From NCBI GenBank assembly GCA_001793865.1, contig MGIS01000008.1:1-37837 (forward strand): a DNA stretch of 37,837 nt, written 5' to 3'. This stretch comes from Candidatus Wolfebacteria bacterium RIFCSPLOWO2_01_FULL_47_17b. GTDB lineage: Bacteria > Patescibacteriota > Minisyncoccia > UBA6257 > JAGOQP01. The translations under genes and the position numbers were made by a program. The number at the start of each line of letters is the position of its first letter. Within the stretch, counting starts at the first letter, position 1. Positions 2,541-37,181 of the stretch are shown piece after piece. The notes beneath the pieces are model-generated. The model worked only from the letters and a program-made list of their open reading frames with translations, ran no database searches and was not told where the DNA came from.

Positions 2541-3584
2541 ATGTCAAAATATATTCAAATAGGAAATAGAAAAATCGGTCCTGATTATCCGCCTTTTGTG
2601 ATTGCAGAAATCGGCATTAATCATAATGGAAGTATCGCGAAAGCAAAGCGGATGATCCGCGACGCAAAGCGGGCCGGAGCAGAATGCGTAAAATTTCAGG
2701 GCCACGTTCTTGAAGATGAAATGCTCGAACGAGAAGCGCGAAAGACCATTCCGGCAAATTCAAAAGTTTCGATCTGGGAGGTGATGGAGCGCTCCGCGCT
2801 GTCGGAGGCGCAGGAGCGAGAACTCAAGCGCTATACGGAAAAACTCGGGCTCATTTTTCTCTCGACGCCGTTTTCGCGGGCCGCAGCAAATCAGCTCAAT
2901 CGTATGGGAGTCAAGGCATTTAAGATCGGATCCGGAGAATGCAATAATTATCCGTTGGTCGAGCATGTGGCGCGATTCGGAAAGCCGATGATCGTTTCAA
3001 CCGGCATGAATGATATTTCTTCCATCAGAAAGACCGTTGCGATTTTGCGAAAACATAAAGTCCCGTTTGCGCTTCTTCATTGCACCAATATGTATCCGAC
3101 ACCGTGGAACCGCATATATCTTCAGGCGATTACGAAATTGAGAAAGGCGTTTCCCGATATCGTCATAGGACTTTCAAACCACTCTGAAGGTCCGTGGGCA
3201 GCGCTTGGCGCGGTGGCGCTCGGCGCCTCAATTCTTGAAAGGCATTTTACGTCTGACCGCTCATGGCGCGGTGAAGATATTCCGGTTTCCATGGACCCCG
3301 CAGAGCTCAAAATGATTCTTCGGGGTGCGCGCGCAATTTGGGAATCGCGCGGGGACCATAAGGGTCCTTTGAAAGAGGAAAAGCCCACGATTGATTTTGC
3401 GTTTGCATCTGTGGTTACAATTGCGCCCATAAAAGCCGGAGAAAAATTTAGCATGAAGAATCTTTGGGTGAAGCGCCCGGGTACAGGCGAAATGCGGGCA
3501 GAAAAATTTAGAAGTATTCTCGGCAGGAGGGCGCGAAAAGATATTCCGAAAGATATACAGCTTCGATGGAATCACGTGATGTAA
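2541..3584 (+). CDS. neuB: N-acetylneuraminate-type synthase (canonical NeuB with C-terminal SAF domain)
   Basis: FVIAEIGINHNGSIAKAKRMIRDAKRAGAECVKFQ, KIGSGECNNYPLVEHVARFGKPMIVSTGM, and C-terminal VTIAPIKAGEKFSMKNLWVKRPG. Confidence 0.88.
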   Translation: MSKYIQIGNRKIGPDYPPFVIAEIGINHNGSIAKAKRMIRDAKRAGAECVKFQGHVLEDEMLEREARKTIPANSKVSIWEVMERSALSEAQERELKRYTEKLGLIFLSTPFSRAAANQLNRMGVKAFKIGSGECNNYPLVEHVARFGKPMIVSTGMNDISSIRKTVAILRKHKVPFALLHCTNMYPTPWNRIYLQAITKLRKAFPDIVIGLSNHSEGPWAALGAVALGASILERHFTSDRSWRGEDIPVSMDPAELKMILRGARAIWESRGDHKGPLKEEKPTIDFAFASVVTIAPIKAGEKFSMKNLWVKRPGTGEMRAEKFRSILGRRARKDIPKDIQLRWNHVM

Positions 3585-4855
3585 GAAAAAAGAAAAAAAT
3601 CTGCGTTGTCACGACGAACCGATCCGACTATGGGCGCATGAAGCCCATTATGGAGGCGATCAGGAAGCGCGACGATCTCGAGCTCCAGGTTGTTGCCGGG
3701 ACTCCTTTTTTCTTTGACCATCTTTTTTGGTATATGCGCCACGGCGAGCCGCTTTCGTTTTGGCGATCTCTTCCGTGGCATATTCGCGCCCGCACCATGG
3801 CGTTTTTCGAGAAAGATAAGGAACTTCAAAAAAAAGAGCAGCTTATGCGGCTTTTGGTCGCTGACGGGTTTCCCATTCACGCGCGTCTCCCTTTGTTTCT
3901 TGAGGGAGGGAATCTTCGCGTGATGGCGAAGACTGTTGGGCTTGCTCTCTTGGGTGTTCCCGATGTCCTTTCAAAATTGAATCCGGATATTGTGTTAATG
4001 AATGGAGATCGTTTTGAAATACTTCCAATCGCCTTTGCAACCGTTGCGTTAAATATTCCGCTTGCGCATATCGAAGGCGGCGATGTTTCTGGTACGATTG
4101 ACGAAAGTGTGCGCCACGCCATCACAAAGCTCGCGCATATCCATTTTCCCGCGACCAAAATGAGCGGGGAGCGCATTCGGGCAATGGGAGAAAACCCCGA
4201 AAGGATTATAGTTACCGGTTCCCCGGTCATCGATACGCTCGCAGGTCTTGATCTTTCCCTTGATAATTCAATTTACGACCGATACTACATCGCGGGCGAT
4301 CGCATCGATTTTACGAAGCCCTATCTTCTCATCATGCAGCATCCCGTTACCACGCGGTATGAAGAAAATAGACAGGAAATGGAAGAGATTATAGCCGCGG
4401 TTCGTGATGCGCCGATGCAAAAAATATTTCTTGATCCGAATATCGACGGGGGGTCTGATGGCGTCTCTGTGGCATTACGCACGTATCGCGACACGCATCC
4501 TTCTGGTGTCGCGTTCGGAAAATATTTCCGGCCGCATGATTTCTATCGCATTATTTCAAACGCCGCGGTTTTGGTCGGCAATTCTTCGAGTTTTATCCGT
4601 GAGTCCGCTTATCTCGGCATTCCGACTGTGCTTACGGGAGATCGGCAAGCAAAAAGAGAAAGAGGAGGGAACGTGCTCGAAGTTCCCGCAAAAATCAAGG
4701 CAATACAGGAAGGGATCAAGCGTCAGATCGCGCATGGTCGATATAAACCCGATTTTCGATTTGGGACCGGAACTTCAGCCGAACAAATTGTGCATGTCCT
4801 CTCTGGTCTTAATCTCGAAAATCTTTCTATTCAAAAAACTTTTTACGAATCATGA
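3566..4855 (+). CDS. neuC: UDP-GlcNAc 2-epimerase (hydrolysing), NeuC-like
   Basis: KKICVVTTNRSDYGRMKPIMEAI start, AHIEGGDVSGTIDESVRHAITKLAHIHFPAT, MQHPVTT, VGNSSSFIRESAYLGIPTV. Confidence 0.85.
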   Translation: MESRDVRKKKKICVVTTNRSDYGRMKPIMEAIRKRDDLELQVVAGTPFFFDHLFWYMRHGEPLSFWRSLPWHIRARTMAFFEKDKELQKKEQLMRLLVADGFPIHARLPLFLEGGNLRVMAKTVGLALLGVPDVLSKLNPDIVLMNGDRFEILPIAFATVALNIPLAHIEGGDVSGTIDESVRHAITKLAHIHFPATKMSGERIRAMGENPERIIVTGSPVIDTLAGLDLSLDNSIYDRYYIAGDRIDFTKPYLLIMQHPVTTRYEENRQEMEEIIAAVRDAPMQKIFLDPNIDGGSDGVSVALRTYRDTHPSGVAFGKYFRPHDFYRIISNAAVLVGNSSSFIRESAYLGIPTVLTGDRQAKRERGGNVLEVPAKIKAIQEGIKRQIAHGRYKPDFRFGTGTSAEQIVHVLSGLNLENLSIQKTFYES

Positions 4856-6674: not shown

Positions 6675-8060
6675 ATGTATGGGATGAAAACTTTTTTTAT
6701 TACCGTACAGCTTGGATCAGAAATAAAAAACTGGTTCTATGGCGATTTTTATCGTCTTGCGAAAGAAAATTCGGATATTCGTCTCGTGGTCTTTACGCAC
6801 CCCATCACTATTGAGGCATATCGTAAGGATTTTGGACATGAACGCTGTATATTCGAAGTCTTCCCTGATCTAAAACTTTCCAACCGGCCGCTTCGGCAAT
6901 TTTTTCGAATTGTGTCTCAGGCATCTATTCCTACAGACGTCGTGTCGTTTCGCATTTGGTATTGGTATAAAACAGGAGGATCGTTTCTTTATTTTATAGT
7001 AAAGCAAGGTGTGTGGCTTTTGAGCCACCTTTGGATCTGGAGGGCGTTTCTTCGTTTTGTGGAGTATAATTTTTTTCGAGACGAACGTGCGTGGGAATCA
7101 AGCTTTCAAAAATATAAGCCGGATGCAGTATTCGCAACAACGACGTACCGCGATTATGATACGACTTTGTTAAAGTATGCGCGGAGACATGGCATTCCGA
7201 GTGTTGGGATGCTTCGCGGGTGGGATAATATGTCATCAAAAGCGTTTTTATTGGTACATCCCGACATTCTGTGTGTACAAAACAATGTGATGGTGGATGA
7301 GGCAAAGAATTGGAATGATCTACCGCCCAATCGCGTCAAGGTGGTAGGGTTTCCGTATTTTGATCATTATGTTGATTCCGCATGGCGTATGACGCGTGAA
7401 GAAATCGGGGAAGCGATTGGAGCTGATCCTTCAAAAAAATGGATTGGGTTTTTTGTAGGTGGAATTTTTGTCGGATTTCTGCGCGCAGGGGACGGATCAT
7501 ATCATGCGGGGCTTCTTGATGATGCCGCAGCGCGGGGCGAGTTTGGAGATGCCCTTATTCTTGCGAGTATACACCCGGGATTTCGCGGCGAATGGGGATT
7601 TTCGACCGACGGCACCAAAGTTCAACAAATCCGCCTCACCACGCAGTGGAATTTTAGCCAAAACAGCATGAAAGTAATTATGAATTTGATGCGTGAGTGC
7701 GAAGTCGCTGTTGATTTTGGTTCGAGTCTTTCTCTCGAGACCGCAATCTTTGATCGACCCACGGTGTTCGTGGGATTTAACGGACCGGATGATTCGACAG
7801 TTCCGTGGTATAAAAAAATTTCTGTTGCCTACGACAGGTATACTCATTTGCGCTATATTTTTGATGCGGGTGGTGGATGGATCGCAAAAGATCCCGGGGA
7901 ACTTATATCCGCAATTAAGACATATCTTATTGAGCAATCGCTTCACCGAGAAGGAAGAGCGCAAATTGTAAAAAATCTTGTGGGCCCGCTTGACGGAAAG
8001 GCGGGGGCACGGGTTTTCCAAGTACTCTGTACGTTAGGCGACAAACCCATTCATGACTAA
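6675..8060 (+). CDS. Putative GT-B-like surface-glycan transferase (paralogue 1 of 3); start may be 6684
   Basis: MKTFFITVQLGSEIKNWFYGDFYRLA and LRGWDNMSSKAFLLVHPDILCVQNNVMVDEAKNWNDLPPNRVKVVGFPYFDHY closely parallel the 10809 protein. Confidence 0.5.
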   Translation: MYGMKTFFITVQLGSEIKNWFYGDFYRLAKENSDIRLVVFTHPITIEAYRKDFGHERCIFEVFPDLKLSNRPLRQFFRIVSQASIPTDVVSFRIWYWYKTGGSFLYFIVKQGVWLLSHLWIWRAFLRFVEYNFFRDERAWESSFQKYKPDAVFATTTYRDYDTTLLKYARRHGIPSVGMLRGWDNMSSKAFLLVHPDILCVQNNVMVDEAKNWNDLPPNRVKVVGFPYFDHYVDSAWRMTREEIGEAIGADPSKKWIGFFVGGIFVGFLRAGDGSYHAGLLDDAAARGEFGDALILASIHPGFRGEWGFSTDGTKVQQIRLTTQWNFSQNSMKVIMNLMRECEVAVDFGSSLSLETAIFDRPTVFVGFNGPDDSTVPWYKKISVAYDRYTHLRYIFDAGGGWIAKDPGELISAIKTYLIEQSLHREGRAQIVKNLVGPLDGKAGARVFQVLCTLGDKPIHD

Positions 8061-10808: not shown

Positions 10809-12167
10809 ATGAAAACCATTTTCATGACATGCCAACTCGGGCAGGAACTTCGCGATTTCATGGTCGGTACGTTTTACAAAATTGCCCAAGCGGACAAAGG
10901 CGTCCGTCTTATTGTATTTGCCCCGCCGAATACCATCGACGACATGCGAAAGAATTTTGCAAACGAGCACTGCATTGTAGAACCGCTCATTATCGAAAGA
11001 CCGAAAGGCCGGATGGCAAGGATGTTTTTTGGATTTATGGCGTCCTATCCCATGATTCCGACAGAAACGATTTATATCCGTCAGCGTTATGCCTATCTAA
11101 ACGGGGGGAGTTTTTCCGGTTTCGTGGTCAAGAGAATTTTATGGGTTCTGGGGCACACGTCTGTCGCGCGGAAGATCGTGCGCGCGATCTGGTATCGGTT
11201 TTTTTGTGACGATTACAAGTGGAGTGAGTATTTTGATCGGTACAAGCCCGACGTTGTGTTTGGAACGAGCGGGTTTCGCTGGTGGGATTTTACTATATTA
11301 GCGCACGCGAAGCGCCGGGGCATTCCAACGGTTCTTATGCTCCGAAGCTGGGATAATCTTTCGACCAAAGCGTTTCTTTTTGTTATTCCCGATATGCTCC
11401 TCGCACAAAATCCCGTGATGGTGACTGAGGCGATCGATTGGCATGACGTGCCGAAAGAAAAAATACGTCTTGTCGGTTCTCCTCCCTATGACCACTATGC
11501 AAATTCGTCATGGTTTTTATCGCGTGAAGAAGTTGCGCGCCGAATCGGCATTGACTTCCGAAAACGCTGGATCGGATATTTTTCCGGTCCGCTTTTTACC
11601 GGTGTCCTTGGATGCGAGGATACCGGCGAACATATAAAGATGATTCAGGACGCGATTCAGGGCGGAAGAATCCAAAACGCTGAAGTTATTGCAAGCATTC
11701 ATCCGGATAATAAATCGGTCCTCGAGGCGTATAGGGTCCATTGCCCGGTATTAAACCTTGTCAAAGGATGGAAATTTGATGTTGAGCAGACGCGGCTTCT
11801 TGCAAGTTTCATCAGGGAGTGCGGCGTCATGACGCATTTTGGTTCGACGGTGTCCTTGGATGCCGCGATTCTCGATACGCCGTCTATCATTGTCGGTTTT
11901 AACGGATATCGGGAAAAAGATTTTCCGTGGCAGAAAAAACTTTCCGTTGCGTTTGACCATACTCTCCATATGCACTATCTTCTCCGGACAAAGGGGATGA
12001 TTCGTGTAAATACTGAAACAGAATTTATAGACGCAATTAATACGTATCTGGGAAACCGCGTGCTCCACCAAGATGGGAGAGCGCGGCTCGTTAATGACCT
12101 TGTGGGACCGGTTGACGGCAGGGTCGGAGAAAGGGTATTTAACGCCGTTCTTTCGATGGCGAAATGA
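10809..12167 (+). CDS. Putative GT-B-like surface-glycan transferase (paralogue 2 of 3)
   Basis: MKTIFMTCQLGQELRDFMVGTFYKIA; LRSWDNLSTKAFLFVIPDMLLAQNPVMVTEAIDWHDVPKEKIRLVGSPPYDHY, shared with 6675. Confidence 0.5.
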   Translation: MKTIFMTCQLGQELRDFMVGTFYKIAQADKGVRLIVFAPPNTIDDMRKNFANEHCIVEPLIIERPKGRMARMFFGFMASYPMIPTETIYIRQRYAYLNGGSFSGFVVKRILWVLGHTSVARKIVRAIWYRFFCDDYKWSEYFDRYKPDVVFGTSGFRWWDFTILAHAKRRGIPTVLMLRSWDNLSTKAFLFVIPDMLLAQNPVMVTEAIDWHDVPKEKIRLVGSPPYDHYANSSWFLSREEVARRIGIDFRKRWIGYFSGPLFTGVLGCEDTGEHIKMIQDAIQGGRIQNAEVIASIHPDNKSVLEAYRVHCPVLNLVKGWKFDVEQTRLLASFIRECGVMTHFGSTVSLDAAILDTPSIIVGFNGYREKDFPWQKKLSVAFDHTLHMHYLLRTKGMIRVNTETEFIDAINTYLGNRVLHQDGRARLVNDLVGPVDGRVGERVFNAVLSMAK

Positions 12168-12215: not shown

Positions 12216-12953
12216 ATGACCTCAACGAATCCTAAGAAAATACTTGCCGTGATCGGCGCCCGCTCGGGGTCCCGGGGCGTACCCCATAAAAACATCCGTG
12301 ATTTGGGCGGCAAACCATTGATGGCGTGGATTATTGAGACTGCAAAAAAATCTCGGTATGTGAATCGAGTTGTTGTGTGTACCGATTCGGCTGAATACGC
12401 AAAAATTGCCAAGAGGTATGGCGCAGAAGTTCCATATCTTCAACCACCGGAAGTTTCTGAAGGAACAGATTTTGAATACGTACGTTATGCGCTCGCACAA
12501 TTGAAAGAAAAAGAAGGGTATGATCCTGATATTATTGTTCGGCTTATGTCAGTTGTGCCGTTTCAGAAAGCGGAGGACATTGATTCCTGTGTGGAAGAAC
12601 TCCTGCGCCACCCGGACGCTGATTCCTCTGTCGTTGTAGCGGAAGCCCGACAAAACCCTCATAAGGCCTTGAAAATCACTCCAGAGGGAAGATTGGTATC
12701 ATTTATGACGGGAGAAGGAAAAGGGGTAGAGCCTACCAAACGGCAGTGGTATGAAAAAGCGTATTTTCGCGCGAATATAGTTGCTACGTATCCACGAGTG
12801 CTTCGCGAAACCGGAACGATCGTGGGAAATCACGTACGGCATCACGCGATTCCGCAGGAGCGCGCAATTGATATTGACTCTGAAATTGATTTTGTGATTG
12901 CAGAAGCACTCTTAAAAGAGTTTGGCATGAGAAATAGTGGAGATTTTGTATAG
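12216..12953 (+). CDS. CMP-sugar (NeuA-like) cytidylyltransferase, copy 2
   Basis: LAVIGARSGSRGVPHKNIRDLGGKPLMAWIIETAKKS; RAIDIDSEIDFVIAEALL. Confidence 0.82.
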   Translation: MTSTNPKKILAVIGARSGSRGVPHKNIRDLGGKPLMAWIIETAKKSRYVNRVVVCTDSAEYAKIAKRYGAEVPYLQPPEVSEGTDFEYVRYALAQLKEKEGYDPDIIVRLMSVVPFQKAEDIDSCVEELLRHPDADSSVVVAEARQNPHKALKITPEGRLVSFMTGEGKGVEPTKRQWYEKAYFRANIVATYPRVLRETGTIVGNHVRHHAIPQERAIDIDSEIDFVIAEALLKEFGMRNSGDFV

Positions 12954-19609: not shown

Positions 19610-20485
19610 ATGAAGGGTGATTTACCACTAATAAGCATCGGTCTCCCGGTTTATAACAGCGCGTATACGCTTCCTCGCGTACTGGATTCGCTTCTTTCGC
19701 AGACGTACCGCAATCTTGAACTTATTATTTCCGATAATGCTTCCAGTGATGAAACGCCGATCCTTGTGGCAGAGTATGCGAAAAAAGACAGTCGCATTCG
19801 GTATATCAGGCGTGGAGAAAATCTCGGATCGGTTAACAATTTTTTTTTGGTGTTTTCCGAGGCGCGGGGAAAATATTTTATGTGGGCTGCAGGGGACGAC
19901 GGGCATGACCCGCGTTTTATTGAGTCGCTTCTTGGTCCATTGGAGAGCCATACCGATTACGGAGTTTCTATGTGTTCTTACGAAAGGATTGCTCCCGACG
20001 GAATACGCACGGAAGTGGTTTTGTCGGACCGGTATGACTTGCGTGTGTTGAATTATCATGCGGTTTTTAAAAAAATGATGCAGAAAGAACCGATTAGTAT
20101 GGCGATCTATGGCCTTTTTCGTACCGATGCGTTGCGCAAGCTTTTGGCGCGGCCCCTTCCGTATTGTATCGGGTGGGATCGTGTACTCATGTGTGAGGCG
20201 GCGCTTGCCATGCATATGTATACTATTGAGCCGGTACTTTTCTATAAATATACAAATCCTGTGCCCGTGAAGGAGCGGGGAGAAGATTCTTTGTCCCGGG
20301 TATATAATAAGTCATTTCCGAATACCAGATTTTTGTGGGATCTTCTCGTGCGACTCATAACTTCGCGAAGTATCCCCTGGCAGAGAAAATTGTTTATTCC
20401 CGTTCCCTGGCTTAGGTTTTTCTGGAGACAAAGACAGAGAGTCTTGTTAGATTTCAAGTCGGTTTTTACCATACATGGAAAATAG
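19610..20485 (+). CDS. Glycosyltransferase family 2
   Basis: ISIGLPVYNSAYTLPRVLDSLLSQTYRNLELIISDNASSDETP; WAAGDDGHDPRF. Confidence 0.88.
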   Translation: MKGDLPLISIGLPVYNSAYTLPRVLDSLLSQTYRNLELIISDNASSDETPILVAEYAKKDSRIRYIRRGENLGSVNNFFLVFSEARGKYFMWAAGDDGHDPRFIESLLGPLESHTDYGVSMCSYERIAPDGIRTEVVLSDRYDLRVLNYHAVFKKMMQKEPISMAIYGLFRTDALRKLLARPLPYCIGWDRVLMCEAALAMHMYTIEPVLFYKYTNPVPVKERGEDSLSRVYNKSFPNTRFLWDLLVRLITSRSIPWQRKLFIPVPWLRFFWRQRQRVLLDFKSVFTIHGK

Positions 20486-21860
20486 AAAATCAAAAATACT
20501 TTTTGTTTTCCGTTCGTACAATCACCTGCCGACTTTCCGAAAGTCCGTCCGGCTCCTGGCAGATAGGGGGCATGAAGTTTCAGTGCTTTTTCACGGAGGC
20601 CTGACCGATAACACCCTTGAGGAAATACGTCAATTTGAAGGTAATCCGGATAATATCACTTACGATTGGACCATGCCTTCGCAAAGAGGCGGCACGTTTG
20701 TATTTCATTCGCGGGAAGTTTTGAATTACCGCAAGCATTTGCTTAAAGCGGGCGGCCTTCAATTCTATGCTGAGCGTTGGAGGGGCTATCTTCACCCTAA
20801 GCTGCAGAAAATTTTTGCATGGAGAATAGCACGCGAATTAGTCAAAACCGGACTGGCCGGATGGTTTCTTAAACTAATTGAAAGATTAACACCGCCGCAA
20901 TCCGACGTACTATCGCACCTAAGGAATTTAAATCCTGATATAGTGGCGGTAACTCCGTTAAATCAGCGTTATTCCTCTATGGAGTTGGAATATCTCAAGG
21001 CCGCGGTTACATTGGGTGTTCCTTCTGTTCTTCTTATGGGGTCTTGGGACCACATTACCTCTAAGGGAATTTATCATATCGTGCCCGATGTTTCGTTAAT
21101 ATGGAACGAGGAGCAGGTACAAGAGATGTGGGAGCATCATAGAATACCTCGCGATAACCTGCGCATCGTGGGAGCGCCGACTCTGGATCACTGGCTTGAT
21201 TTCGATGATCCTACGCCGCGGGAAATTTTTTGTAAGAATTACCGCTTGAGACCGGATGATTCGATTATTATGTATTGCTGTTCTTCTAACGTCATTATTG
21301 GAAGCGAAACTGCGTCGGTGACTGAACTTCGCAAGATTCTGGATGAATCAGCCGACGAACGTCTCAAAAGAACGCAGATTATTTTTAGGCCCCACCCCAA
21401 AAACTTTAAAATTTATGAGAAGCTTCAACTTCCGGGTGTAACGGTTATACCGCGCGGAGATGTTCTATACGGAAAATTGGAAGGACAAAGAATTTTTTAT
21501 GATACGCTCATGCATTCTTCGCTCGTGTTTGGAATCAATACCAGCGCCATGCTGGATGCTATGCTTTTGGGAAAGCCGGTGATTGCTTTATACAAAGATC
21601 AATATACGGCAACACAGGTTGAAATGTATCATTTTAACTCGCTTTTACATATGGGAGCGATTGAGTTTGCAAAGACACCCGATGAAATTCGTAAAGCTAT
21701 TCTTGATATTTTTGAAGGGCGCGATGTAAGGAAAGAGAAACGCGAACGTTTTATACGTGATTTTATCCGGCCGCGCGGGATAAAGATATCTGCCAACGAG
21801 GTCATCGCTGATGAGATTGAAGATATACTAAAATCATCGAAACATTCTCTGCTTTTTTGA
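20475..21860 (+). CDS. Putative GT-B-like surface-glycan transferase (divergent paralogue 3 of 3)
   Basis: LLMGSWDHITSKGIYHIVPDVSLIWNEEQVQEMWEHHRIPRDNLRIVGAPTLDHW matches the motif block of 6675 and 10809; IIFRPHPKN and FGINTSAMLDAMLLGKPVIAL are GT-B-type C-terminal motifs. Confidence 0.55.
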   Translation: MENRKSKILFVFRSYNHLPTFRKSVRLLADRGHEVSVLFHGGLTDNTLEEIRQFEGNPDNITYDWTMPSQRGGTFVFHSREVLNYRKHLLKAGGLQFYAERWRGYLHPKLQKIFAWRIARELVKTGLAGWFLKLIERLTPPQSDVLSHLRNLNPDIVAVTPLNQRYSSMELEYLKAAVTLGVPSVLLMGSWDHITSKGIYHIVPDVSLIWNEEQVQEMWEHHRIPRDNLRIVGAPTLDHWLDFDDPTPREIFCKNYRLRPDDSIIMYCCSSNVIIGSETASVTELRKILDESADERLKRTQIIFRPHPKNFKIYEKLQLPGVTVIPRGDVLYGKLEGQRIFYDTLMHSSLVFGINTSAMLDAMLLGKPVIALYKDQYTATQVEMYHFNSLLHMGAIEFAKTPDEIRKAILDIFEGRDVRKEKRERFIRDFIRPRGIKISANEVIADEIEDILKSSKHSLLF

Positions 21861-21867
21861 CGTTTAA

Positions 21868-22599
21868 ATGAGTATGAAGGTTCTTGGAATAATTCCGGCA
21901 AGGGGTGGTTCAAAGGGAGTTCCCCGGAAAAATATCCGGAATCTTTGTGGTAATCCTTTGATTGCCTGGACCATTGAAGAAGCGAAAAAATCAAAACTTC
22001 TTACGCGTATAATTGTAACTACCGAGGATTCCGAAATTGCGAAGGTTGCACGCGCATATGGAGCAGAAATTCCGTTTATGCGCCCTAAAGAGCTCGCGGC
22101 AGATCTTTCAACGGATATGGATTTTCTTACTCATGCGCTTGATTGGCTCCGCGATAAGGAAGGATATGAACCCGATATTGTTGTTACGCTTCGCGTGACC
22201 GCTCCATTAAAAACAGCGGCGCATATTGATGAAGGTATTCAAAAATTGATTGACAATCCCGATGCTGATGCCGCGCGTCCTATTCACGAGTCGCCGAAGC
22301 ATCCGTACAAGATGTGGAAGATTTCAGAAGACGAAACGCATCTGGAAGAATTTTTATCAAAATCATTTACCGGATTTGACGAGCCGCATAACTTACCGCG
22401 TCAATTATTCCCAAAAGTGTATGTTCATACGGGCGCCATGGATATTATGCGTCGTCGTACTATTCAGGAGTTGAAATCTACTTCGGGAAATAAACTTGCT
22501 TACTTTTTTATGGATCCAAAGGACTCAGTAAATATTGATAGTGAGATGGATTTTCAAATGGCGGAGTTTTTAATGAGTAAGCGCTTAGAAAATAAATAA
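21868..22599 (+). CDS. CMP-sugar (NeuA-like) cytidylyltransferase, copy 3
   Basis: VLGIIPARGGSKGVPRKNIRNLCGNPLIAWTIEEAKKS; VNIDSEMDFQMAEFLM. Confidence 0.85.
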   Translation: MSMKVLGIIPARGGSKGVPRKNIRNLCGNPLIAWTIEEAKKSKLLTRIIVTTEDSEIAKVARAYGAEIPFMRPKELAADLSTDMDFLTHALDWLRDKEGYEPDIVVTLRVTAPLKTAAHIDEGIQKLIDNPDADAARPIHESPKHPYKMWKISEDETHLEEFLSKSFTGFDEPHNLPRQLFPKVYVHTGAMDIMRRRTIQELKSTSGNKLAYFFMDPKDSVNIDSEMDFQMAEFLMSKRLENK

Positions 22600-24467: not shown

Positions 24468-24484
24468 GAGTATCTTAGTCGTGA

Positions 24485-24519
24485 ATCTAAAAATCCGCCT
24501 TTCGAGCGGATTTTTAGAT
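24485..24519. terminator. Bidirectional intrinsic terminator between convergent genes
   Basis: Perfect 14-bp stem ATCTAAAAATCCGC / GCGGATTTTTAGAT with 7-nt loop and A/T tracts on both sides. Confidence 0.8.
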
Positions 24520-25029
24520 GATTTTGAGTTCTTTGAAAAGAAAGTACATCGGGGGCTCGAGTCCGGGATGCGAAATCCAGGACGGGTCTTCATTTGTTTC
24601 TTTTACAAGGGAAGGGAGATTATCTTCGATAAGACGGATTTTTTTCTCGCGAGCAAAGTCTTCGAGTTTTTTTGAAAGCTCCTTGATCTTTTGGGGACTT
24701 GCCCAGAAATACGATTTTACTTCGCTCTCGCTTGGCCGGACATCGCCGTGCCAGTGTGTTGCTTCAAAAATTGACCAGGCGTGATGCGTTCCACCATCGC
24801 GTTTGCATGGGTTCGGAAGTATTTTCTCTACACGAAGCGTGAGTTCATCGGCAATGAGGCCTGTTTCTTCGTCGAGTTCTCGAGCTGTTCCGGCGCCTGA
24901 CGTATCGCCGTCGAGGTGCCCGGCGGGAAGCGCCATGCCGAAATTATTCTTTTTTCTTTCGATCATGAGGATATCCTCACCCTTGCGGATAAGGATACCC
25001 CCTGACGTATTGTCGCAGGCCTTTGCCAT
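24514..25029 (-). CDS. NUDIX hydrolase
   Basis: LPAGHLDGDTSGAGTARELDEETGLIADE (Nudix-box-like) within a NUDIX-type fold pattern. Confidence 0.82.
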   Translation of the reverse strand: MAKACDNTSGGILIRKGEDILMIERKKNNFGMALPAGHLDGDTSGAGTARELDEETGLIADELTLRVEKILPNPCKRDGGTHHAWSIFEATHWHGDVRPSESEVKSYFWASPQKIKELSKKLEDFAREKKIRLIEDNLPSLVKETNEDPSWISHPGLEPPMYFLFKELKII

Positions 25030-25042
25030 GAGAGCTTTTGAG

Positions 25043-25462
25043 CTAGACCAATCGCTTCACTAATTCTTCAGGTGTGTTAAGAACTTCGGTAAAGAGAATA
25101 TCCCGGCATATTTCGCCGTTGGTTTCAACTGGTTCTTGCTCAAGTGCATAGATAATCATGTTGTGCCCATGCGCAAACCCCAGTTCAAGGGTGGTGTTTA
25201 CGCCGAGGTATCCATCTTTATTGAAAATAAAACACACATCCGCTTTTCGGATTTTATTGAAATGCTCATGAACCATAGCGGGGATCTGTGCGCGATATGA
25301 CTGGTTTTTTATTCGTTCGCTTTCGTTTTTGCTGTACAGTTCTTCGTTGTGATTAAAGTTTGGTTCAAAAACAACGGGTACCCCCAGTTCTCGTAATCGT
25401 GTGGCAAACGCTTTGATCTCCTTGCCATATCGCTGGGATCCGCAAATAACAATGCTTCTCAT
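25043..25462 (-). CDS. Nucleoside 2-deoxyribosyltransferase-like protein
   Basis: RSIVICGSQRYGKEIKAFATRLRELGVPVVFEP; IRKADVCFIFNKDGYLGVNTTLELGFAHGHNMIIYAL. Lies 13 nt upstream of the NUDIX gene. Confidence 0.55.
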   Translation of the reverse strand: MRSIVICGSQRYGKEIKAFATRLRELGVPVVFEPNFNHNEELYSKNESERIKNQSYRAQIPAMVHEHFNKIRKADVCFIFNKDGYLGVNTTLELGFAHGHNMIIYALEQEPVETNGEICRDILFTEVLNTPEELVKRLV

Positions 25463-25603
25463 ATATCCGTGGATTTAGTCGTGGTGTATAATAGTATGTA
25501 TATTTTATAACTCTCGGTTTTATCGTAAAGTAACAGGCAATCCAGGAAACAAATACCCTTCACCGGGCGTTTATAATTGAGATAACCGACTAATAAAATT
25601 TAT

Positions 25604-32046: not shown

Positions 32047-33078
32047 ATGTTTATGCACTCTGGAATTTTACAAAATAATCATTCATCTGCGTTCTGGAGA
32101 AACCGTCCCGTGCTCGTTACCGGCGGGGCCGGTTTTATTGGATCATGGCTTGCGGATGGTCTTATTCGGCGCGGCGCGGATGTTACTATTCTTGATATCA
32201 AAAAAGCTCTCCCGGATGCCGGCGGCCACTATGACACTCTGCGAAGCAAGGGGAGATATATTCAGGGTGATGTTCGCGATGAAAAAGTGCTCGAGGATAT
32301 ACTCCGGCGCTACCATATCACAACCGTGTTTCATCTTGCCGCAGAAGCAATCGTGGGGAACGCCCTGAAGGATCCCGGAGAAGCGCTTGATACGAATATT
32401 CGCGGCACGTGGACCGTTCTTGAAGCTGTTAGGCGGCTCAATCCAAAGATACACGTTATCACCGCATCGTCTGACAAAGCGTATGGCGCTCACGAAACAC
32501 TTCCGTATACAGAAGAATTCTCTTTGAGCGGGAGAAATCCGTATGACTGTTCGAAGAGCTGTGCAGATCTCATTGCTCAAATGTATGGGCATACCTACGG
32601 TCTTTGTCTTGTTGTTACGCGCTGTGGGAATGTATACGGCGGAGGCGATTTGAATTTTTCCCGGCTCGTTCCCGATACTATTCGCTCGCTGTGGCACGGG
32701 AAGGCGCCCGTGATACGAAGCGACGGCATGTTTCGACGGGACTATGTATTTGTTTCTGACATCGTCTCTGCATATCTTTCTACCGCAGAAGCACTTATCG
32801 CGGGCGAGATGAAACATCACGTGTTTAATTTTGGAACAGGCGCGCCGCAGCGCGCAATTGATATGGTTTCTCGAATTACTGAGCTTATGGATACTACGCT
32901 TCAGCCCGTGATTCTTAGCGAAGCCCAGTACGAGATTAAAGATCAATATCTTGATGCCTCGCGCGCTCAGGAAACGCTTCGATGGCATCCGCGCGTAGGT
33001 CTTGAAGAAGGGTTGGTCGACACTATCGCATGGTATAAGGAGTATTTTCGACAAAGCGGAATTACCTCTTCCGAATAA
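32047..33078 (+). CDS. rfbG: CDP-glucose 4,6-dehydratase-like extended SDR (RfbG-like)
   Basis: VLVTGGAGFIGSWLADGLIRRGADVTILD; ITASSDKAYG; NPYDCSKSCADLIAQMY; GNVYGGGDLNFSRLVPDTIRSL. Confidence 0.72.
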   Translation: MFMHSGILQNNHSSAFWRNRPVLVTGGAGFIGSWLADGLIRRGADVTILDIKKALPDAGGHYDTLRSKGRYIQGDVRDEKVLEDILRRYHITTVFHLAAEAIVGNALKDPGEALDTNIRGTWTVLEAVRRLNPKIHVITASSDKAYGAHETLPYTEEFSLSGRNPYDCSKSCADLIAQMYGHTYGLCLVVTRCGNVYGGGDLNFSRLVPDTIRSLWHGKAPVIRSDGMFRRDYVFVSDIVSAYLSTAEALIAGEMKHHVFNFGTGAPQRAIDMVSRITELMDTTLQPVILSEAQYEIKDQYLDASRAQETLRWHPRVGLEEGLVDTIAWYKEYFRQSGITSSE

Positions 33079-33097
33079 GAGAGTCTTTGAAGTAGAA

Positions 33098-34573
33098 ATG
33101 TATGCAATTATGAATTATCCGAAAAAGGTATTTCATTGGATAGACGGAAAAGAGGTTCGGCCCGCCACGGGCAAATTTTTTCCGAAAATGAATCCCGCGA
33201 CCGGAGAGGTTTTGTCTTTTGTCGCCAAGGGTGACAAGCGTGACGCGGAAAAAGCACTCAAGTCGGCAGAACGGGAGTTTGCCGTGTGGTCTGAGATGAC
33301 GGTTGTAAAGCGTGCGGAAATATTGCGGGATGCGGTTTTGCAGATGCGAGAGCGGAAAGACGAACTTGCTGAGATCGTCGCGCTCGAATCCGGAAAATCA
33401 AAAAAATCATCCCTCGGAGAAGTGGATGCCGCGATAGAATGCGGATTTTTCTTCGTGGGCGAAGGGAGGCGGTTTTTCGGGATTGTTCTTCCCACCGCGG
33501 TCCCGAATCGGAGAGTCAAATTGATCCGAGAACCCGTGGGGATAGGTGCCCTTATCACGCCTTTCAATAACCCCGCCGCGGGAGTTGCATGGAAGCTCTT
33601 TCCTGCGCTACTTTGCGGAAACGCCGTTATTGTGAAGTCGCATGAATATACACCTTACGTTGCCGTCTGGTACGCAAAAATTTTTAAAGAAGCGGGGGTT
33701 CCCGCGGGAGTTATCTCGGTACTTCAAGGCACCGGGCTCGAGGTCGGTGCGCCATTGGTCGCGGATCCGAGAATCGAATTTGTGAGCGTAACCGGCTCTG
33801 CTGCGACCGGACAGAAAATTATCAGAGCAACCGCGAATCGTCTTGCAAAAGTATCCGTTGAGGCGGGCGGGAAAAATCCGTTTGTTGTGTGTGATGACGC
33901 AGACCTTGAAAAAGCGGCAACGATTGCGGTTTCTGCGGCATTTGTCGATGCGGGCCAGCGATGCGCCGCTGCAAGTCGGATTATTATTTTTGACAAAGTA
34001 TACGAAAAATTCAAAAAATTTTTTCTTCAGAAGGTGAATGCGCTTAAAGTCGGCATTGCGGATACTGATGACTATGGAGCGATTATTTCAGAGAAACGGA
34101 TGAAAGAAATTTTGAATGCTATTCACGGCGCGCAAAAACGACGGGGAGTTCTTCTTGCGGGCGGCGTGCGCCTTGCGGGCGAAGCGCACAAGAAAGGATT
34201 TTTCATAGCGCCGACCGTATTCGAGCGCGTTTCGCCGAAAGACGAAATTTCTAAAAAAGAGCTTTTTGGACCCGTTGTCGCGCTTTATCGCGTAAAAAAT
34301 CTTGATGATGCGATACGGCTCTCCAATGATTCTCAATATAAGCTTTCTGGAGCAATTCATACGTCATCAATCCATCGTGCAGAGGAATTCATACGCCGCT
34401 ACCGCGCGGGAGTTGTGCGCGTAAACGGACCTACGCACGGCTCCGAGCCCCATATGCCTTTTGGCGGCATGGGAATCTCCGGCAACGGCTGGCGCGAGCC
34501 GGGAACGCAGGCATTGGAATTTTACAGCGAGTGGAAGCAGGTGAGCGTTGACTTTGATCCTTCGCGAGTTTAA
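33098..34573 (+). CDS. Aldehyde dehydrogenase family protein
   Basis: ALITPFNNPAAGVAWKLFPALLCGNAVIVKSHEYTP; FVSVTGSAATGQKI; VSVEAGGKNPFVVCDDADLEKA; DAGQRCAAASRIII. Start 33098 or 33110 preferred over ORF start 33002. Confidence 0.88.
   Translation: MYAIMNYPKKVFHWIDGKEVRPATGKFFPKMNPATGEVLSFVAKGDKRDAEKALKSAEREFAVWSEMTVVKRAEILRDAVLQMRERKDELAEIVALESGKSKKSSLGEVDAAIECGFFFVGEGRRFFGIVLPTAVPNRRVKLIREPVGIGALITPFNNPAAGVAWKLFPALLCGNAVIVKSHEYTPYVAVWYAKIFKEAGVPAGVISVLQGTGLEVGAPLVADPRIEFVSVTGSAATGQKIIRATANRLAKVSVEAGGKNPFVVCDDADLEKAATIAVSAAFVDAGQRCAAASRIIIFDKVYEKFKKFFLQKVNALKVGIADTDDYGAIISEKRMKEILNAIHGAQKRRGVLLAGGVRLAGEAHKKGFFIAPTVFERVSPKDEISKKELFGPVVALYRVKNLDDAIRLSNDSQYKLSGAIHTSSIHRAEEFIRRYRAGVVRVNGPTHGSEPHMPFGGMGISGNGWREPGTQALEFYSEWKQVSVDFDPSRV
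34481..34551 (+). repeat. 71-bp near-identical direct repeat, copy A (inside ALDH 3' end)
   Basis: 68/71 identical to 35020-35090 by eye. Confidence 0.9.
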
Positions 34574-35175: not shown

Positions 35176-35859
35176 ATGGCAGTGATGAGGCGGCTCGAAG
35201 TCCTTGAAATCATGCGCGCGCACGGGCTTGTTCCTACGGTGAATGCCGGGAGCGTTTCTGACTATCTCCGGGTGGGAGAGGCGCTTCTTGAAGGCGGAAT
35301 CCCGTTCATAGAGATTCTTCTCCGTCCGTACGGAAACATACCCCCGCGCGTGAATACCGATGCGATCTATGAAGCGCGTAAGCACTTCGGGGACGCACTG
35401 ATCGTTGGAGCTGGCACGGTTCAGACCTCTGAACGGGCGCAAATCGCAATTGACGCGGGTGCGGAATTCATCGTGAGCAATCTCACGGATGAAGGAGTTA
35501 TCAAGATTGCGAATCTGAACGGCGTTCTCGTAATCCCCGGCGCTCGCGATGATAGCCAGGTACGAATTGCGATGGGCCTTGGCGTCATGGTGGTGAAGCT
35601 TTTCATGCCAATGCCTTCGCTGGGAATCAAAGCAAATCTCAAGTTCTTGAGCGAGTTTCGCGGGATATTCCCGAGGATGGAATTCATCGTGACGGGCGGC
35701 GTGGATATTGATGTTATTGGCGCGTTTCTCCGCGCGGGATATCTCTTTGTTGTGCCGAGTCTCGGCATCTCTGAAGCGGTGAAGTCAAGCGACTGGGCGA
35801 GCGTCACGCAAAACGCAAAGCTCGCGGTTTCCGAGGCAGTCGAAGCCCGTGCGCAATAG
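35176..35859 (+). CDS. KDPG/KHG-type aldolase
   Basis: VGEALLEGGIPFIEILLRP; LIVGAGTVQTSERAQIAIDAGAEFIVSN; VVKLFMPMPSLGIKANLKFLSEFRGIFP; VTGGVDID. Confidence 0.8.
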   Translation: MAVMRRLEVLEIMRAHGLVPTVNAGSVSDYLRVGEALLEGGIPFIEILLRPYGNIPPRVNTDAIYEARKHFGDALIVGAGTVQTSERAQIAIDAGAEFIVSNLTDEGVIKIANLNGVLVIPGARDDSQVRIAMGLGVMVVKLFMPMPSLGIKANLKFLSEFRGIFPRMEFIVTGGVDIDVIGAFLRAGYLFVVPSLGISEAVKSSDWASVTQNAKLAVSEAVEARAQ

Positions 35860-35872
35860 ACAAATCTCGATT

Positions 35873-35898
35873 TCCGGCGCGTACGCACCGGATTTTTT
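35873..35898 (+). terminator. Intrinsic terminator after the KDPG-type aldolase
   Basis: TCCGGcGCGtaCGCaCCGGA hairpin followed by TTTTTT. Confidence 0.7.
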
Positions 35899-35899
35899 C

Positions 35900-35927
35900 T
35901 TGACTTTTTCTGGAGAATTTGTATACT
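35900..35927 (+). promoter_or_regulatory. Sigma70-type promoter for the 35990 gene
   Basis: TTGACT (35900-35905), 16-nt spacer, TATACT (35922-35927). Confidence 0.65.
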
Positions 35928-35934
35928 ATATTCT

Positions 35935-35950
35935 GCTAGAATCCTCTAGC
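35935..35950 (+). promoter_or_regulatory. Small perfect inverted repeat at the predicted transcript 5' end
   Basis: GCTAGA-atcc-TCTAGC, 8-23 nt after the -10 box. Confidence 0.55.
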
Positions 35951-35989
35951 TAGTTCCAAACTCGAACCCGAACAACAAGGAGGCGGGAG

Positions 35990-37087
35990 ATGGCGAAGAG
36001 AGTGGCGGTGTGCTTCGGAGACGCAGGAACAACGGATTGTATCGGTGAGTCCGTGAATCAGCTTCTCGCCGAGGGCTATCCGATCGAGGTCTTCCTCGAC
36101 CCCAAGGGCGCCGGACGGAAGGCGCTCACTCGCCTCGGAATTCCGTTCACCGAGGCAACCGAGATCGACATCGACCAGTACGGTCTCGTGATCTCCGGCA
36201 CGAACGGCAAGGCGCAGACCCTCTGGGTCAGTGCCACGAAGGCCGCACTCGATCGGAATGTCCCGGTCATCTGGTGTGGGGACTTCTACATGTCGGGGTG
36301 TGAGGCCGCGGTGCGAGATCTCGTCCCGACCTGGCTCACTACGCTCGACGAGTCCGCGCGCAAGCTCGCGCTCCGCGCGCGGCCAGATCTTGGTCCTGAC
36401 AGCGTGGTCGCGCTCGGCAATGCTTCATTCGATAACGTTGCCGATTTCCTATCTCCATCGTATCGCTTGGCGGTTCGCAAGGAGATGCGGCGTTGTCTCA
36501 ACAGCGCGACGATCGTCTACTTCGCCGCGTCCTCCTCGAATCAGTTCAAGAGAGAGGAGATGGATGCAACGATTCACGCACTCGTCACATCAGTCCGGAA
36601 CTTCATTCCGCCTCCACATGTCATCGTGTCCTTCCATCCTGCTGACCCTGCGAAGGACGAGCTCGAGGCGCTCGCGCGCGATCTTCTCGAGAATGCGGAT
36701 GTCCCTCACACCATCGGTGAGCGCGTCATGTCGGGCGTCCCCGACTACGTCGGTGCAGACGCCGCGGTGGTGCAGTATTCGACCGAGGGTGTGAAGTCGT
36801 CGCTCGTCGTTCCTACCGCGTTCGTTCTCTTGCCTTCGATGCGCGCCTATCAGCGAACGCGCGGAGGCAAGTGGCCATTCTTCCCGCAGATCGCTCGCGG
36901 CGCTGCAGAGGTGGTGTGGCACGTGGACGCGTTCGACTCGACTCTTGAGCGCATGCTCGAGGGCGAGGACGACTACTTCACGGCCCTGTGCGAGGCCAGC
37001 CAGGAGCACTTCAGCGGGCTCATAGATGGCGGCTCAACTGGCCGCCTCAAGAAGTTCCTCAAGCAGAAGATCAACGACATCAAGTAG
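35990..37087 (+). CDS. Hypothetical protein, possibly GT-B/epimerase-like fold
   Basis: 365 aa, SD AGGAGG. HVIVSFHPADP and ADAAVVQYSTEGVKSSLVVPTAFVLLPSM loosely resemble GT-B/2-epimerase C-terminal motifs. Composition clearly unlike the neighbours. Confidence 0.6.
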   Translation: MAKRVAVCFGDAGTTDCIGESVNQLLAEGYPIEVFLDPKGAGRKALTRLGIPFTEATEIDIDQYGLVISGTNGKAQTLWVSATKAALDRNVPVIWCGDFYMSGCEAAVRDLVPTWLTTLDESARKLALRARPDLGPDSVVALGNASFDNVADFLSPSYRLAVRKEMRRCLNSATIVYFAASSSNQFKREEMDATIHALVTSVRNFIPPPHVIVSFHPADPAKDELEALARDLLENADVPHTIGERVMSGVPDYVGADAAVVQYSTEGVKSSLVVPTAFVLLPSMRAYQRTRGGKWPFFPQIARGAAEVVWHVDAFDSTLERMLEGEDDYFTALCEASQEHFSGLIDGGSTGRLKKFLKQKINDIK

Positions 37088-37113
37088 GCAAGGAGGGTTT
37101 TATCGAAGACCGA

Positions 37114-37145
37114 GGGGTTCTCGCGCATGCGGGACCCCCTTTTTG
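37114..37145 (+). terminator. Intrinsic terminator after the 35990 gene
   Basis: GGGGttctCGC-gcat-GCGgGaCCCC imperfect hairpin followed by a T tract. Confidence 0.65.
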
Positions 37146-37181
37146 AAACTATAAAAGCAATAAATTCGTTCTAAATATACA

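Follow-up and report, generated by a model that had tools for sequence, protein, structure and literature searches.

A stand-alone gene for a GT-B-fold protein in a Candidatus Wolfebacteria sugar cluster, and its conserved codon dialect

One gene of a Candidatus Wolfebacteria surface-sugar cluster has its own transcription signals and a codon usage that sets it apart from the rest of its genome, and a syntenic ortholog has kept both over long divergence. Tentatively, we read it as a private transcription unit for a GT-B glycosyltransferase, with a codon dialect kept by selection and a message shaped for long life. The window, by which we mean the whole stretch of DNA analysed, is a complete contig (C8) of 37,837 bases from a genome of 730 kb in 25 contigs. 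Genes of outlying composition are routinely assigned either to foreign DNA or to the highly expressed set; this gene, on the evidence below, is neither.

The coding sequence starts with ATG, runs from 35990 to 37087 on the forward strand and encodes 365 amino acids, with a GC content of 0.61 and a GC3 of 0.762. We compared it with codon statistics from sampled stretches of the genome (337 kb of the 730 kb, 308 ORFs). Its GC3 of 0.76 is the highest of the 309 ORFs (the 308 others have a mean of 0.50, sd 0.084 and a maximum of 0.69; z = 3.1), and all 46 of its Lys, Glu and Gln codons end in G (a fraction of 1.00, against a mean of 0.41, sd 0.11 and a maximum of 0.76 in the other ORFs). Lys is always AAG (16/16), Glu GAG (21/21), Gln CAG (9/9) and Phe TTC (17/17), CTC accounts for 24 of 32 codons, and the effective number of codons (41.2) falls below the lowest value among 121 sampled genes of the genome (43.2). 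A reading made from the sequence alone had described the gene as G/C-rich with codon usage unlike that of its AT-leaning neighbours. Comparison with the genome average bears out the distinct codon usage, and the description of the neighbours holds in part: they are about 40-50% GC, the remaining window genes range in GC3 from 0.35 to 0.62, and the gene directly upstream (35176-35859) stands at 0.62.

The signals around the gene form a compact series on the forward strand. The intrinsic terminator of the upstream aldolase-like gene (35873-35898; stem-loop and T-run, fold z -2.6) abuts a promoter of the form TTGACT-N16-TATACT (35900-35927). A 5' hairpin, GCTAGA-ATCC-TCTAGC, lies at the predicted transcript start (35935-35950) and is followed by an A/C-rich leader (35951-35989) with the Shine-Dalgarno sequence AAGGAGG (35977-35983; AGGAGG core 35978-35983). 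Beyond the coding sequence stands a strong intrinsic terminator, a hairpin with a T-run (37112-37143; fold -24.7 kcal/mol, z -3.4). A simple promoter scan was not significant by itself (27 sites found against 23.8 expected), and the fold energy of the 5' hairpin alone was no better than that of shuffles (z -0.6). We hold the private signals to be real because the ortholog from a Candidatus Nomurabacteria genome (L025) has conserved every one of them, promoter, leader hairpin, Shine-Dalgarno sequence and terminator; its promoter reads TTGACT..TATAGT, and its 5' stem persists despite two pair changes, a compensatory one from A-T to G-C and another from G-C to G-U. The leader word AACAACAAGGAG is identical in the ortholog and unique in the window genome, and the pattern TTGACTTTTT-N5-14-TRTANWATA occurs a single time in that whole genome. 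An Rfam search of this unit and of the leaders of the orphan gene P0002, described below, returned tRNAs only and no known RNA element. The gene is thus well described as a self-contained transcription unit; the further statement that it alone has such private signals is true within the window and fails elsewhere in the class, where other such units exist. Between the terminator and the transketolase start, positions 37144-37181 are nearly identical in the ortholog despite the diverged synonymous sites of both neighbours, and this stretch is a possible promoter or leader of the transketolase gene.

The ortholog also bears on the origin of the composition, for which recent horizontal acquisition had been one suggestion; on that view the gene would still carry the codon usage of a GC-rich donor, decaying toward that of the host. 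The gene is certainly a compositional outlier, and its subfamily is rare and patchy, with three known members: an order-wide search of 243 other genomes found no further one, and a phylum sample held, besides the gene itself, only one distant homolog. The best named relatives come from Candidatus Nomurabacteria and Candidatus Sungiibacteriota, in keeping with a Parcubacteria-type (Patescibacteria) genome. The Nomurabacteria ortholog shares 72% amino acid identity, a GC3 of 0.76 and G-ending Lys/Glu/Gln codons (50/53), and a 36% homolog, from a Sungbacteria cluster that also holds NeuA, SDR, aldehyde dehydrogenase, transketolase and NeuB, has a GC3 of 0.74 and 48/59 such codons; the other genes of these two genomes have a mean GC3 of 0.51 and 0.54, respectively. 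The order SDR, aldehyde dehydrogenase, 365-aa gene, transketolase is common to the window and the Nomurabacteria locus, with only the gene directly upstream differing.

Since the split the two copies have changed at 50 of 104 fourfold sites (48%), with a dS of about 0.8 (NG86), like the flanks; among the Biopython estimates for the gene, YN00 gave 2.0 against 0.77-0.81 by two other methods, and we used the lower values as the conservative choice. Over the same interval the third bases of Lys, Glu and Gln codons stayed frozen, differing at 1 of 30 positions in the gene against 42 of 122 in the flanking SDR, aldehyde dehydrogenase and transketolase genes (Fisher p 2.5e-4). Two-state drift starting from 100% G at the split predicts 74% G, whereas 46/46 (p 8e-7) and 50/53 (p 1e-4) are observed. 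Additionally, the ortholog precedes the same transketolase, which is of ordinary composition in both genomes, and the intergenic stretch is nearly identical; therefore the unit was part of such a genome by the time the lineages split, and a recent transfer is unsupported. Nor do the Asp, Asn, His, Tyr and Cys codons or the fourfold sites look like those of a GC-rich genome, being only mildly GC-rich. With codons shared at this divergence, recent acquisition is contradicted as an explanation and we regard it as very improbable. A viral or plasmid origin was rejected as well: phage and plasmid records held no homolog of the gene, IMG/VR searches with it, with P0002 and with an orphan found between ftsA and ftsZ were empty, and PHROGs gave nothing significant. 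As a contrast, the same genome carries a compositional outlier of the mobile type, a GC-rich IS3-like transposase gene on contig C1 (L027, 4141-5131).

The other conventional account is that the gene is under the classic selection on translation seen in highly expressed genes, such as those for ribosomal proteins and elongation factors. The strong promoter, Shine-Dalgarno sequence and terminator would suit it, as would the low effective number of codons, and the C-ending codons overlap partly with those of EF-Tu. However, the codon adaptation index of the gene against the ribosomal-protein and elongation-factor set is 0.61, which is just the window average, and the preference for Glu and Lys codons runs opposite to that of the highly expressed genes. 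The ribosomal proteins, EF-G and EF-Tu of the window genome favour GAA (104/140) and AAA (103/159), so that GAG makes up 36 of 140 Glu codons in them and 21 of 21 in the gene, and EF-Tu retains mostly A-ending Lys, Glu and Gln codons in all three genomes. This explanation is accordingly quite unlikely. The suggestion of expression-driven codon selection thus survives in one respect: there is selection on synonymous sites, but not of the expression-driven kind.

What is selected appears to reach beyond codon identity. NAG and NTC codons carry a strong bias, NAY codons and fourfold boxes a weak one. When codon usage was held fixed by shuffling, the codon junctions of the three subfamily members showed observed/expected ratios of 0.43 for T|A, 0.64 for T|T, 0.66 for C|C and 1.65 for T|C, against 0.87, 1.19, 0.76 and 1.03 in the window genome, with which only a milder avoidance of C|C is common. 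Runs of A/T are likewise scarce: in synonymous simulations with matched GC3, the window gene has 4 runs of at least four A/T against 16 expected and none of at least five against 6 expected, while control genes (the aldehyde dehydrogenase, the transketolase, another glycosyltransferase and EF-Tu) are at expectation. As these rules hold at fixed codons and fixed GC3, they argue for selection on the nucleic acid itself. An overlapping or antisense gene as the cause of the bias was rejected, no alternative frame being consistently longer than its counterpart in codon-shuffled controls. In the open-access literature we found no description of the dialect for Patescibacteria.

Two further explanations take up particular features of this pattern. 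The NAG/NTC bias leaves room for a tRNA-based rule, in the form of codon-specific translational control, by which codons read by G34 or C34 tRNAs (NAG and NTC in weak-middle boxes) would keep the message translatable while U34-modified tRNAs run short or suffer damage. The avoidance is indeed codon-like, with A-ending codons at 0 of 46 Lys/Glu/Gln positions against 13-14% at fourfold sites, and the genome has C34 tRNAs for Lys and Gln; tRNA choice alone, however, would be insufficient for the T|A, T|C and C|C junction rules, which are strong at fixed codon usage, and we consider such control unlikely. Alternatively, DNA, and not only RNA, could be the target of the rule, as the depletion of AA and TT is about equal and roughly strand-symmetric, with TA depleted and AT not. 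A-tracts and TpA steps would then be avoided so that a nucleoid or silencing protein is evaded or cryptic promoters do not arise, for instance in a mobile cassette, and the similar unit between ftsA and ftsZ would fit. The promoters of the units are themselves A/T-rich, though, and no mobility genes were seen at the units, which leaves a DNA-level rule with a similarly small probability.

The preferred reading, a dialect kept by selection on the message, draws on a wider set of genes. The only other TTGACTTTTT..TRTANWATA promoter site in the Nomurabacteria genome precedes an unrelated orphan gene, P0002, that has the same dialect. Relatives of P0002, collected by protein similarity only (P0002 itself was first spotted by its codons), were found in 69 of 384 class genomes. 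Stand-alone copies exceed their neighbours by 0.19 in GC3 on average (16 loci, p 6e-4) and by 0.28 in G-ending Lys/Glu/Gln (p 0.002), most have long leaders and a terminator-like hairpin, and pooled they show the same codon signature as the window gene; where the P0002 domain lies within proteins of about 640 residues, the GC3 excess is absent (13 loci, -0.005). The pooled stand-alone copies have junction ratios of 0.58 for T|A, 1.44 for T|C and 0.76 for C|C, against 0.90, 0.98 and 0.99 in their neighbours. The T|T avoidance of the window gene's family is not common to P0002, and there are exceptions among the copies, such as that in the window's own genome (L085), which has no dialect (GC3 0.48). 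The window gene shows the features by which we would define the class, namely its own promoter and terminator together with NAG/NTC codons, avoidance of T|A and C|C and an excess of T|C. We are evenly balanced on whether Parcubacteria carry such a class: scattered, self-contained single-gene units of unrelated families, the window glycosyltransferase included, sharing a codon and junction dialect that is kept by nucleic-acid selection and matches neither the genome average nor the highly expressed genes.

Several observations on these and similar loci may be recorded here. The 5' leaders of stand-alone members of the P0002 family (L067:12565-13227, homologs L082-L102) are conserved and structured-looking, with the pattern CCTCGGG..AGAGG..CCGAC..GTCGGAGAAGGAG, and past the stop codon the copies have A-poor tails in which the words CCTTGG and TCTTTGA are repeated; Rfam had no match. 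The P0002 domain also forms the end of the proteins of about 640 residues. On contig C11 of the window genome (G000), a dialect-like orphan of 106 amino acids lies between ftsA and ftsZ (L036, complement 3234-3554), with G/C-ending codons, promoter-like and terminator-like sequences of its own and no Pfam match. In another genome (G934, contig C28; L069, about 4060-4800), a GC-rich orphan has a strong promoter; a long 5' hairpin comes directly after it, then an A/C-rich leader carrying a Shine-Dalgarno sequence.

How the parts of the window unit might work together can be set out as follows. Transcribed alone from its strong private promoter, the gene would give a short mRNA with a hairpin at its 5' end, an open A/C-rich leader with a strong Shine-Dalgarno sequence and a strong 3' hairpin. 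Selection would hold the coding sequence to the dialect typical of the stand-alone units of Parcubacteria (Paceibacteria-like genomes), which avoids A/T runs by using NAG and NTC codons, by placing T ahead of C and by making little use of T|A, T|T and C|C junctions. With its ends protected and A/U-rich cleavage sites scarce, the message could then be long-lived and cleanly translated in slow-growing cells. We propose this because such a message would be expected to combine just these features: a private promoter, a 5' hairpin, an open leader, a strong 3' hairpin and a coding sequence freed of A/T runs; that mRNA stability is the selected property and that the product is abundant are our best guesses. 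Against the proposal stand the 5' hairpin energy, the near-equal AA and TT depletion, the opposition of the Lys/Glu dialect to EF-Tu and ribosomal genes, the P0002 copy lacking the dialect, the missing T|T avoidance in P0002 and a subfamily of three.

The protein itself had been credited with vague GT-B/epimerase-like motifs. It had no Pfam match (E up to 10), no match to PDB sequences and no meaningful NCBIfam match, and its AlphaFold model (pLDDT 88.9, pTM 0.86) shows two Rossmann-like domains in a GT-B fold. Foldseek with this model matched GT-B proteins, among them UDP-GlcNAc 2-epimerase (E 7e-11) and TarL (E 7e-10), confirming the fold. A protein search of the 384 class genomes gathered a divergent family, and some of its 14 aligned members match CDP-glycerol glycerophosphotransferases, UDP-GlcNAc 2-epimerases or BFO_1060-type glycosyltransferases; the family profile matched 2-epimerase and TarL chains in the PDB. 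In hhalign the family also matched the three other GT-B genes of the cluster (99%, E 5e-19), and where the neighbourhood of a distant homolog was read, it was mostly a surface-sugar cluster with NeuA/NeuB-like genes. The protein is most likely a surface-glycan glycosyltransferase, a new yet unsurprising GT-B member. The profile tie to cluster glycosyltransferases beside NeuA-like genes, together with the homologs in NeuA/NeuB clusters, suggests that its donor is a cytidylyl-activated sugar, probably a CMP-ulosonic acid made by the cluster, which the enzyme would move onto a surface glycan.

Contig C8 is almost wholly a surface-sugar cluster of the nonulosonate (NeuA/NeuB) type. It holds three PseF/NeuA-type cytidylyltransferase genes, two NeuB-type synthases, a NeuC-type epimerase, an enolase-superfamily dehydratase, two similar SDRs, an aldehyde dehydrogenase (33002-34573; PF00171 5e-141, 83% identity to L025 and 62% to the Sungbacteria locus L015), a KDPG/KHG aldolase-like gene (35176-35859; PF01081 1.5e-24), absent at the corresponding place in L025, and the N-terminal part of a transketolase cut at the contig end (37182-37837; PF00456 5e-26, 85% identical in L025), these three on the forward strand. 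Also on the forward strand are the three related GT-B glycosyltransferases with profile matches to the gene's family: a BFO_1060-like one in the NeuA/NeuB/NeuC part (6675-8060; NF046086 1e-11, below the cut-off), one adjoining the NeuA-like gene at 12216-12953 (10809-12167) and one adjoining that at 21868-22599 (20475-21860). The set of SDR, aldehyde dehydrogenase and transketolase is found again with NeuA/NeuB in Sungbacteria (L015), and the cluster (1265-37837) may make an undescribed ulosonic acid. At 24468-25603 the longest ORFs are on the minus strand (24514-25029 and 25043-25462). Elsewhere in the window genome, tRNA genes for Lys (CTT), Gln (CTG), Leu (TAA) and Cys (GCA) are apparently duplicated (L030, L032, L033, L054, L058), with contigs C6 and C7 both carrying Leu-TAA adjoining Cys-GCA or nearly so, perhaps through strain mixture or bin contamination.

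The interest of the gene lies in the maintained, shared codon dialect of stand-alone units: an outlier composition has persisted across long divergence, and an unrelated stand-alone family follows the same rule in many bacteria with small genomes. Should the class prove real, a codon dialect would amount to a layer of regulation or stability legible from sequence, pointing to orphan genes given special treatment by reduced-genome bacteria and cautioning against labelling such genes horizontally acquired.

Conditional codon programmes have been reported for mycobacteria and yeast (PMC6307160). The codon-biased transcript families described there, under changed tRNA modification, resemble the window gene in departing, at several codons, from the genome average and from the 'optimal' codons alike; the window rule, however, also covers codon junctions and A/T runs and is a mark of stand-alone units, and no link to stress is known for it. 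Among enzymes, the BFO_1060 family (NF046086) and its relatives in this cluster share the GT-B architecture, an HP motif and NeuA-like neighbours and align with the gene's family at 99% in hhalign, and 5 of the 14 family members weakly match the NF046086 model, but the gene itself has no match to that model and is related by profile-profile comparison only. TagF/TarL proteins (PF04464) share the fold, with the Foldseek match noted above and PF04464 matches in 3 of the 14 family members, whereas the gene has no Pfam match and no teichoic-acid genes were recognised in the window. The non-hydrolysing UDP-GlcNAc 2-epimerases (WecB/NeuC, PF02350) give the best structural match (TM about 0.6-0.67), yet the gene matches neither their Pfam nor NCBIfam models and the cluster has a NeuC of its own (3566-4855). 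Compared with the cluster's other glycosyltransferases, finally, the protein is about 100 residues shorter, and its gene differs in forming a separate transcription unit with its own codon dialect.
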